From assembly GCF_000455345.1 (NCBI RefSeq), contig NZ_HG315690.1, forward strand, positions 1,687,360 to 1,751,359: a stretch of 64,000 nucleotides of DNA. Direction: 5' to 3'. Every line of letters begins with the position of its first letter. The stretch's first letter is position 1. This DNA is from Halopiger goleimassiliensis. Lineage in GTDB: Archaea > Halobacteriota > Halobacteria > Halobacteriales > Natrialbaceae. The notes beneath the pieces are model-generated. The model ran no database searches. It had not been told where the DNA came from and saw only the letters and a program-made list of their open reading frames with translations. This document shows, one piece after another, positions 661-53,171 of the stretch. The position numbers and the translations under genes were made by a program.

Positions 661-762
661 TCGGGGGTTCGCATCGAGCAGTCGGCTTTCGACGGCTCCC
701 TCGCACTGAGCAGGACCCCGATCCCGAGAGGCCAACAGTGTCGGAGACTCTTTCGAAGATCA

Positions 763-783
763 CGAGACGGCGAAGCCGTCTCG
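763..783. repeat. Short perfect hairpin with 3-nt loop
   Basis: Nine-bp perfect arms CGAGACGGC / GCCGTCTCG around the loop GAA, in the non-coding stretch 661-896. Its shape (8-11 bp arms, trinucleotide loop) matches hairpins found inside trpB (60749-60883) and rtcB (25569-25624). It may act as a transcription terminator for the gene ending at 660 or be a small insertion; nothing here separates the two. Confidence 0.5.
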
Positions 784-810
784 AACGACGTCACGTCCAC
801 AGCCCACCAG

Positions 811-858
811 GTGAACCGCCTCGGGGTCAAGCTCCCGGGGCATTCGCCTTGACCGCCT
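811..858 (-). repeat. Solo TnpB-element scar, copy 1 (48 bp)
   Basis: Read on the minus strand it starts AGGCGGTCAAGG and ends GGTTCAC. The start matches the left end of the tnpB element at 51598-53045 and the end matches that element's right end; between them lies one copy of the CCTCGGGG-type hairpin with one extra base. The flank on the left-end side is TTTAC (plus 859-863), like the TCTAC next to the full element. Non-coding context downstream of the gene at 897-1097. Likely a minimal derivative without any gene. Confidence 0.75.
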
Positions 859-896
859 GTAAAGCCGAAAGACGACCGTCGACGTGCTGCTCAGTT

Positions 897-24168: not shown

Positions 24169-24393
24169 ATGGACGAGGACATGCTCGACGATCAGCGTCG
24201 GCTCGTAGAGCTGATCGAGTCGGAGGGCTGGGACGTCACCGACCTCGAGATCTCGGCGTACGACAGCCCCTGGTCCGACGAGGACGATCCGGAGGCGTCG
24301 GTGACGATTACGGCCCGGAAGCCCTACGAAACCGAGGACGATGGGGACGACGGCGCGGACGAGGACGACGAGAACCCGTTCCGGCTGAAGTGA
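24169..24393 (+). CDS. Small acidic protein, unknown function
   Basis: A 74-residue, strongly acidic protein (MDEDMLDDQRRLVELIESEGWDVTDLEISAYDS..., ending NPFRLK). The N-terminal half could form one helix plus a strand; the C-terminal half is an Asp/Glu-rich tail. No known domain seen. The TGA stop is supplied by the first bases of a 47-bp mobile scar (24390-24436). Removing the scar gives AAG-TAA at the same place, so the protein is unchanged. Confidence 0.65.
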   Translation: MDEDMLDDQRRLVELIESEGWDVTDLEISAYDSPWSDEDDPEASVTITARKPYETEDDGDDGADEDDENPFRLK

Positions 24394-24436
24394 ACCGCCT
24401 CGGGGTCAAGCCCCGGGGCATTCGCCTTGACCGCCT
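24390..24436 (-). repeat. Solo TnpB-element scar, copy 2 (47 bp)
   Basis: On the minus strand it starts AGGCGGTCAAGGCG, contains a hairpin with arms CCCGGGG-like around CTTGA, and ends GGTTCAC. It is almost identical to copy 1 (811-858). Left end and right end match those of the tnpB element at 51598-53045. It is flanked by TTTAC on the left-end side. It sits between two convergent genes, overlapping the stop of the upstream one and ending 10 bp before the stop of vapC. Confidence 0.8.
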
Positions 24437-24446
24437 GTAAATGGGA

Positions 24447-51597: not shown

Positions 51598-51750
51598 GTG
51601 AACCGCCTCGGGGTCAAGCCCCGAGGCTTCCCGTGGATTAGTCGGACACGCCTCGGATATCATCGGGATGATGCCCTCTCGCGGTATCCGAGGTCACGGT
51701 CGGGGCGTCCACGGCCCCCGATGCCTGCCGTCGCACCGTCCGCACTTGGG
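51598..51750 (-). ncRNA. Predicted omega RNA (TnpB guide RNA)
   Basis: By analogy with TnpB systems, and with the sense-overlapping RNAs known from haloarchaeal IS1341-type elements, an RNA should cover the 3' end of tnpB and the right-end hairpin, ending in the guide taken from flanking DNA just below 51598. The hairpin 51606-51626 and the terminal GGTTCAC are seen; the 5' border near 51750 is a guess from usual lengths. Confidence 0.5.
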
Positions 51751-52915
51751 GAAGGCTGTTGAGAGCAGGCACAGTCCAGTCTTGATGCTTCTCGATGCCT
51801 TTCACGGCGATGTTGACGCTCGCACTTCGGTCGGCGTGGTCCTGATGCTGGCACGACCGACACTTGAACCGCTTTTTGTTGCGGTTCGCTCGCTCCGTGT
51901 GTCCACACATCGGACACTGCTGACTCGTGTATTCTGGGTTAATCCACGCCGTTGGCACGCCCTCGAAAGCGGCTTTGTACGAGGCGTAGTCTTGGAGTGT
52001 ACGGAACGGCAAGTGGTGCAAGCGTCGGTTCATCCGCGTACCGTAGTCGATACTGTCGCGCATCTCCTTGAGGTCTTCAAAGACGATGCACGGTTTCTCG
52101 AACTGGTGGCTCCACGCCACGATGTGGCGGCTCACCTTGTGGAGTCGGTCACGGACGAACCGCTCTTCCCGTCCTTCCAGCGTGTCGTGTATACTCGGTT
52201 TCTGGGCGTTCTGCACCCGCTTTCGCATCGTGAAGTAGCGGTGACGCTCGAACTTGATTTCGGGGAACTGGATGACCAGCGTGTCCTCGACGCCATCTGC
52301 TGACAGCGCCGACAGTGCCACGTTGTCTTCGTTCACGTCCACGCCGATGACCGTCCGAGAGTCCTGTTTCTCTCGGACGGGACGCTCGGTATTCGTGACG
52401 GTGATGTGCAACTCGGGCGTTCCATCATGGAACAGGGCTTCTGCAGTTCCAATGATCCACTCGTCGCCAGCGAGTGCGGCCCGCAGAATGTCAAGATGGG
52501 TGTCATCGCCCTCCAACACTCCTGTGACGTGCTTGTACGGTTTGGCACTGATGCGGAACTCGATAGTGCCGTCGTCACAGAGCGTGAGGTTGTAGCCTTC
52601 CTCGTAGTTGGCTCGAAGCGGGTACGTGCCGTCTTTGGTGTGACTCGGCAGGCCGAAGTCATCGTGCTCGTGGTAGTTCTCCATCGCGCCGAGTGCTTTC
52701 GCAACGACTCGCTGTGTGGTGTTTTTCACGAGAGCGGCGTCGTCGGCCACGCGGTCGGGGATTTCATCCCAGTCCACGCCTTGCTTGGCAAGACGGATGG
52801 TTTCGTTGTACGCCCACCGCGATTCGAGCGTGGCGTCGTACAGCAGACTCTCGTTGTCACTCTGGATGTTCAGTTGGAAATCCAGCGTCTTCACGAGCGC
52901 CTGTGCATCGGTCAT
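51638..52915 (-). CDS. tnpB: RNA-guided endonuclease TnpB
   Basis: A 425-residue TnpB. RuvC residues are all present: D193 in IGVDVNEDNVALSAL, E280 in CIVFEDLKEMRDS and D362 in DHADRSASVNI. The zinc ribbon is C334-x2-C337 and C352-x2-C355 (CPMCGH...KCRSC). N-terminal OrfB helix-turn-helix-like part (LDFQLNIQSDNESLLYDATLESRWAYNETIRLAK). It should cut DNA next to the TAM as directed by the omega RNA and so help keep the element after loss. No frameshift; likely active. Short C-terminal tail past the zinc ribbon. Confidence 0.93.
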   Translation of the reverse strand: MTDAQALVKTLDFQLNIQSDNESLLYDATLESRWAYNETIRLAKQGVDWDEIPDRVADDAALVKNTTQRVVAKALGAMENYHEHDDFGLPSHTKDGTYPLRANYEEGYNLTLCDDGTIEFRISAKPYKHVTGVLEGDDTHLDILRAALAGDEWIIGTAEALFHDGTPELHITVTNTERPVREKQDSRTVIGVDVNEDNVALSALSADGVEDTLVIQFPEIKFERHRYFTMRKRVQNAQKPSIHDTLEGREERFVRDRLHKVSRHIVAWSHQFEKPCIVFEDLKEMRDSIDYGTRMNRRLHHLPFRTLQDYASYKAAFEGVPTAWINPEYTSQQCPMCGHTERANRNKKRFKCRSCQHQDHADRSASVNIAVKGIEKHQDWTVPALNSLPQVRTVRRQASGAVDAPTVTSDTARGHHPDDIRGVSD

Positions 52916-53045
52916 CTGCCTCGTCCCAGAGTAGTAGTGCGCCGTGCTTGAATGTCAGCCATCCACGGTGAAAGTAAAGCACTCACCCGAGCGTACGGCC
53001 TTCACCCTCGGGGTCAAGCCCCGAGGCACTCGGCCTGTTCCGCCT

Positions 53046-53171
53046 GTAGACGCCCGCGGTGATCGAGTTCAACTGGGTATCGATCGGTCGGTCCGCGGAC
53101 TCGGTCGCCGCCTGGAGCCGTTCGCGCACGCGTTTGAGGTGCTCGTCGGGGGACGAATCGTCGGCACTCAT
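53046..53171 (-). pseudogene. 5' half of the small gene split by the tnpB element
   Basis: ATG at 53171; 42 codons, MSADDSSPDEHLKRVRERLQ... to SITAGVY, whose last two codons GTC-TAC form the TCTAC flank of the element. Read-through into the element would add RRNRPSASGLDPEGEGRTLG and stop at 52983. With the 3' half (51406-51597) it makes a 105-residue helical protein. The insertion probably removes function. Confidence 0.75.

Follow-up and report, generated by a model that had tools for sequence, protein, structure and literature searches.

Two nearly identical sequences of 48 and 47 bp, 23.6 kb apart on the minus strand of the window (the whole 64,000-nt stretch of Halopiger goleimassiliensis DNA analysed here), raise the question of how units too short to code come to consist of both tips of an insertion element plus one near-terminal palindrome. 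We regard them as very probably terminal-only remnants ("solos") of IS200/IS605-type elements, produced by a repeat-mediated deletion from one hairpin to the other. The window holds both solos, here termed W1 and W2, together with one full element:

811 to 858, minus strand: solo (terminal-only) W1, 48 bp, composed of left tip AGGCGGTCAAGGCGAATG directly after TTTAC, hairpin CCCCGGGAGCTTGACCCCGAGG and right tip CGGTTCAC (from sequence, genome search and end alignment)
859 to 863, minus strand: target TTTAC of W1 (GTAAA on the plus strand)
24390 to 24436, minus strand: solo W2, 47 bp, composed of left tip AGGCGGTCAAGGCGAATG directly after TTTAC, chimeric hairpin CCCCGGGGCTTGACCCCGAGG and right tip CGGTTCAC (from sequence and relatives)
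24437 to 24441, minus strand: target TTTAC of W2 (GTAAA on the plus strand)
51598 to 53045, minus strand: full tnpB-only IS200/IS605-type (IS1341-type) element, 1448 bp (read from sequence)
51598 to 51605, minus strand: right tip CGGTTCAC of the full element (from sequence)
51606 to 51626, minus strand: right-end hairpin of the full element, with a guide-like GGGAAG just 5′ of it on its strand
51638 to 52915, minus strand: tnpB, 425 aa, with a Cas12f1-like TNB domain and without internal stop
53006 to 53026, minus strand: left-end hairpin, of the same sequence as the right-end hairpin and offset from it by 1400 bp
53027 to 53045, minus strand: left tip AGGCGGAACAGGCCGAGTG of the full element, 19 nt
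53046 to 53050, minus strand: target TCTAC of the full element (GTAGA on the plus strand)

Both solos lie where the initial annotation placed them and have the lengths it gave. In dinucleotide shuffles, the expectation was 0.00 both for the left-tip 25-mer, which was found twice, and for a 21-mer comprising the right tip and half of the hairpin, which was found three times. Terminal inverted repeats (the MITE criterion) were looked for within the 47–48 bp sequences, and none were seen. The left tip of either solo, flanked by TTTAC, measures 18 nt; the 48 bp of W1 reflect one extra base, an A, in its chimeric hairpin (CCCCGGGAGCTTGA) and not a 19-nt tip. W2 lies where a small gene has its stop codon (window 24388–24393); the element provides a TGA after the last codon AAG, so the end of the protein is unchanged. 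In a relative (G108), W2 is absent from the corresponding site, although the sequence at the joint itself has diverged; a search for a relative carrying both flanks of W1 found none.

Read along the minus strand, the full element follows TCTAC and runs from AGGCGGAACAGGCCGAGTG through the hairpin CCTCGGGGCTTGACCCCGAGG, tnpB, GGGAAG and the same hairpin again to CGGTTCAC. Direct reading of the sequence bore out the identical 21-bp hairpins (CCTCGGGGTCAAGCCCCGAGG, at 51606–51626 and 53006–53026) at an offset of exactly 1400 bp. The encoded TnpB matches Pfam PF07282 (E 7.7e-18) and has TnpB/Cas12f among its PDB relatives. The ~530-bp tnpA part of the element's 2.0-kb relatives is absent from the window copy, and one profile search found no Y1 transposase, and likewise no RAYT/Y1 gene, in this genome. 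Given that Y1 TnpA was not found here yet is present in relatives of 2.0–2.5 kb (PF01797, E 5e-38), the window copy is a non-autonomous derivative. As it lacks the tnpA part and the genome search detected no Y1 gene, present-day movement is expected neither of it nor of the solos. The element breaks a conserved short gene (..NSITAGVY/EEQDGDLTQ..), the site being uninterrupted in three other genomes (G067, G073 and G133).

The solos had been taken to share the TTTAC flank of this element and to derive from it. The full element, however, is flanked by TCTAC and belongs to a TCTAC/GAGTG subtype, whereas W1 and W2 are of the TTTAC/GAATG subtype; because of this difference, the window's element is not their parent. 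Guide/cleavage-site pairing of IS200/IS605 elements (IS608) predicts that the target covaries with the 5-mer before the left hairpin. Such covariation was observed among the fetched loci (TCTAC with GAGTG in 108, TTTAC with GAATG in 31, and a single crossed combination each way), and the right foot GGAAG accompanied TTCAC in 36 cases. Sequence searches of the 3.9-Mb genome (G000), providing the genome-wide count of solo versus full copies that the initial annotation had suggested, returned five solos, one full element of this family and six tnpB genes. The three further solos (C1:1932462, 2937633 and 2188398) are of the window element's subtype. A full copy of the TTTAC/GAATG subtype was not found by searching this genome, and its other tnpB copies (L016, L019 and others) were ruled out as parents of W1 and W2 on account of their different hairpins.

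Three observations argue for a repeat-mediated deletion in place, namely the 15–21 bases shared by the two hairpins of an element, the chimeric nature of the product and the existence of full and solo alleles. As to the second, full elements of the GAATG type (L024, L038, L110 and others) carry CCCCGGGG-CTTGA-CCCCGGGG as their left and CCTCGGGG-CTTGA-CCCCGAGG as their right hairpin, and GAATG solos, W1 and W2 included, read CCCCGGGG-CTTGA-CCCCGAGG, i.e. the 5′ arm of the left-end hairpin followed by the 3′ arm of the right-end one, with a mismatched stem. The composition originally proposed for the solos (left tip, one hairpin, right tip) holds in outline, but the hairpin is this chimera rather than the 21-mer of the full element, and the left tip is that of another subtype. 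Non-consensus left hairpins of full elements were self-paired in 13 of 13 cases, all with CCCCGAGG as the 3′ arm of the right hairpin; solos with non-consensus arms were self-paired in 0 of 17, and 16 of these 17 carried CCCCGAGG (Fisher p 8e-9 for self-pairing of full left ends versus solos, calculated over all fetched copies with kinship ignored). Since the solo search patterns admitted self-paired solos with CCCCGGGG or CCACGGGG, their absence is not a selection effect. A chimera predicted from one full element (L032 in G018, left hairpin CCACGGGG..CCCCGTGG) was found as a solo (L182) in the same genome, and chimeric solos of this subtype are also present in G045 and G012. Within a given genome, full and solo copies likewise have matching right tails, namely TGGTTCAC in both G095 and G097, TACTTCAC in G029 and, on the AAGCGGTATAGG type of G113, CGGTTCAC.

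Shared sites were located through joined-flank searches in sister genomes, with one comparison genome per species; comparing the flanks of 141 elements pairwise gave almost no shared sites. When the joined flanks of nine solos from three close Natrinema genomes were searched across the genus, one site (G100:C65:23010) proved to hold a solo in G100, nothing in G101 and a full 2081-bp element in G099, all at the identical nucleotide and within flanks 95–96% identical over 600 bp on each side. The empty allele is a perfect flank join (CACCGTCTAC followed directly by ACGTACGG). The full allele has an open 459-codon tnpB frame and the tips AGGCGGAGCAGGCCGAGTG and CGGTTCAC; a three-base loss from its left hairpin explains why it had escaped the pattern search. 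At a second site, in another Natrialbaceae genus (g3), G125 carries a full element of 2008 bp, and G128, with flanks 94–97% identical, carries a solo at the same nucleotide and with the same tips, itself bearing a 50–60 bp insert within its hairpin; the sequence of G129 is continuous across the joint. The fetched DNA contains ~1400 TCTAC motifs per Mb, which extrapolates to ~6000 per genome; the odds that both members of a pair hit the same nucleotide independently are thus of the order of 1 in 6000, and coincidence at the shared sites is unlikely. The initial annotation had held that its proposal would fall if solos were never allelic to full elements; these two full/solo pairs show otherwise and, along with the chimeric hairpins, uphold its central idea that deletion between the end hairpins leaves one hairpin and the tips.

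It counts against the deletion reading that most solo sites examined in relatives were empty rather than full, with just two full/solo pairs found. One solo (L127) is common to three genomes, another (L125) occurs in two with the third empty, and a further one (L137) is present, intact or decayed, in four, with one genome empty. Two candidate pairs were discarded: the G097 counterpart of L118 (G095), considered as a full/partial pair, contains an insert of unrelated sequence, and at the site of L174 (G135), where a full allele was supposed, G140 has an unrelated stretch of 410 bp flanked by two TCTAC motifs. The left and right flanks of this same solo (L174, G135:C2:563279; compared with L332 in G140) follow different TCTACs, 410 bp apart in G140, as if recombination between two copies had deleted the intervening DNA. 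At L130 (G099:C7:140221), one TCTAC is followed by a tandem of two different solos, and the relative G116 is without the element. The flanks of the solo site L320 (G126:C1:110922) are 96% identical to those in G136:C50 across two genera (g3 and g5), which suggests that the surrounding DNA may have been transferred recently between them.

We propose that a full element, carrying tnpB alone or together with tnpA, inserts 3′ of T(C/T)TAC without target duplication and later loses everything between its near-terminal hairpins, these having 15–21 identical bases in common; left tip, one hairpin and right tip remain, and a crossover within the hairpin gives a chimera wherever the two hairpins differ. 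The route could be slippage or single-strand annealing at the hairpins and not necessarily RadA crossing-over, and we consider the former more likely than a RadA-dependent event because the repeat is short and palindromic. Nor need the deletion involve the Y1 transposase, given that none was found in this genome. We infer that W1 and W2 were themselves once full elements at the places where they now lie. Every such deletion takes away the GGAAG before the right hairpin and spares the left guide, so a solo retains the left and right cleavage sites, the left guide and one hairpin. Because the right-end guide is lost and only the left one is kept, solos are probably immobile and not excisable.

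The alternative that survives best regards the solos as mobile miniature elements that TnpA moves in trans; on this view W1, W2 and most other copies inserted as solos and are not local deletions. Sister species indeed mostly show an empty, perfectly joined site where a solo stands, but insertion of a full element followed by deletion predicts such empty sites equally. The near identity of W1 and W2 at 23.6 kb from each other, when searches of the genome gave no full copy of their subtype, would suit this alternative, as would the tandem solos in G099 and six strain-specific terminal-only insertions in Haloquadratum (PMC3119063). No full copy of the AGATAAGC subtype was seen within Natrialbaceae, where G083, G094 and G124 have it as solos; solo-rich subtypes do, however, have full copies in other haloarchaeal families, and the AGATNARC subtype, taken up as a solo-dominated proof of mobility, was set aside because its 19 full left ends mean that it is not solo-only. 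Mobile solos are also difficult to reconcile with the missing right-end guide GGAAG, with mismatched chimeric stems left unrepaired in 17 of 17 solos and with the failure to find a Y1 transposase in this genome. We consider this alternative unlikely and, more unlikely still, that TnpA in trans still mobilises a solo which has one chimeric hairpin and lacks the right-end guide; if it did, the minimal IS200/IS605 transposable unit would be ~47 nt with one hairpin.

Solos might also result from aberrant repair, in which TnpA excises the element, TnpB cuts the rejoined site and the repair, templated by the sister copy, jumps between hairpins. This route would yield the same chimera, and tnpB is open, encodes a TNB domain and is carried by most full elements of the family. 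Yet a TnpB-less 369-bp element has been deleted as well (solos L159 and L160 in G029), and so has the non-coding PATE HqIRS46 (PMC3119063); element-encoded TnpB is thus not needed, and we hold this route to be very improbable. It is scarcely conceivable that the 47–48 bp units, although short, palindromic and mostly unannotated in plasmid records, are unrelated REP-like palindromic repeats that converged on element ends, as each subtype agrees with its own full elements in tips, target, guide and tail, and sites common to full and solo copies refute this reading.

Hairpin-to-hairpin deletion, our preferred explanation, appears to be frequent, to judge from the counts of its products. Among the matches listed for a left-end pattern in 125 family genomes, 67 of which had a match, there were 77 solos and 73 other left ends, one of the latter being a solo with a mutated tail. 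Across 392 genomes of the class, the matches listed comprised 43 solos versus 36 left ends for one subtype and 30 solos versus 19 full left ends for AGATNARC, i.e. ~1.2–1.6 solos per full element in two subtypes across haloarchaea. Internal deletions with other breakpoints are rare: copies of 229–645 bp in length numbered 8 versus 88 solos. The solo query matched at 80% coverage in at least 106 plasmid records, haloarchaeal among all matches listed, and no copy was found in phage records.

Several variants accompany these elements. A family of 366–369 bp, without a tnpB-sized frame and with solos of its own (L073, L120, L126, L134 and L159), has the left tip AG..ACAGCGAGAGTG and the tail TACTTCAC, and is a PATE-like family in Natrialbaceae. 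A small repeat of ~50–60 bp lies inside element hairpins, always between GGGG and CTTGA (L331/L349 in G128, L234 in G116, L045 in G020), and a similar piece is found near window 750–800; it forms two stem-loops, with stems that vary from copy to copy while remaining paired around an invariant TGATGACGAGA. Like SMR-A of Haloquadratum, it occupies hairpins, at about half the size of SMR-A. In one solo (L033, G027:C1:2711711), the hairpin unit is tandemly duplicated (37-bp unit), apparently by slippage at AGGCGGTTCA, which is common to left and right tips.

The initial annotation had thought this fate undescribed for IS200/IS605-type elements. Dyall-Smith et al. (2011, PMC3119063), however, had reported that in Haloquadratum walsbyi the IS1341-type ISHwa23 shrank from 1500 bp to 52 bp through core deletion across a near-terminal palindrome of 19 bp. 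The same study described four HqIRS46 sites at which one strain has the complete element and the other just its termini, found its six strain-specific ISHwa23 insertions all to be terminal-only, which it read as perhaps indicating mobility, and proposed repeat-mediated deletion as a defence, leaving mobilisation of terminal-only copies undecided. The fate of the solos is therefore known since 2011, and ours are further examples in other genera; descriptions of chimeric hairpins, empty/solo/full sites, guide loss or breadth of distribution were not found in the limited open-access literature. The present data show removal of TnpB/IS605 elements by hairpin deletion, reported once in Haloquadratum, to be a general decay route in haloarchaea, with solos about as common as full copies. 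The chimeric hairpin serves as a marker separating solos from the ends of complete elements, sites with all three alleles are now available, and the question raised in 2011 about the mobility of such stubs is sharpened by the left guide being retained and the right one lost.

Compared with known systems, the elements resemble IS200/IS605 (divergent tnpA/tnpB) in the Y1 tnpA plus tnpB of the 2.0–2.5 kb relatives, a TnpB with RuvC/TNB domain, subterminal hairpins, a guide at the 5′ hairpin foot matching the cleavage site, a fixed 5-nt left target and the lack of terminal repeats or duplications; unlike tnpA-bearing members, the window copy is tnpB-only, and a Y1 gene was not found in its genome. 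With REP/REPIN sequences and their RAYTs, the solos share short palindromes related to Y1-transposon ends, but here no RAYT/Y1 gene was found in the genome, copies are few and full progenitors are known. As in solo LTRs, deletion between terminal direct repeats leaves one repeat at the site, although the repeats here are hairpins of 21 bp lying within the ends of a DNA element that transposes as a single strand, the tips outside them are retained and no target is duplicated. The closest likeness is to the terminal-only PATEs of Haloquadratum: IS605/IS1341-type elements whose 19–22 bp near-terminal palindromes act as direct repeats, which lose the core and one palindrome (52 bp remain there), show complete/terminal-only alleles between strains, do not duplicate their target and have hairpins also struck by small mobile repeats. 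Correspondingly, precise empty sites without target duplication were found here (perfect joins in G101 and others), and derivation from a complete element at the same site was found for the family at two sites. Distinct from Haloquadratum are the sequences, the length of 47–48 bp and the genera, along with the chimeric hairpins, the empty/solo/full site and the class-wide frequency.
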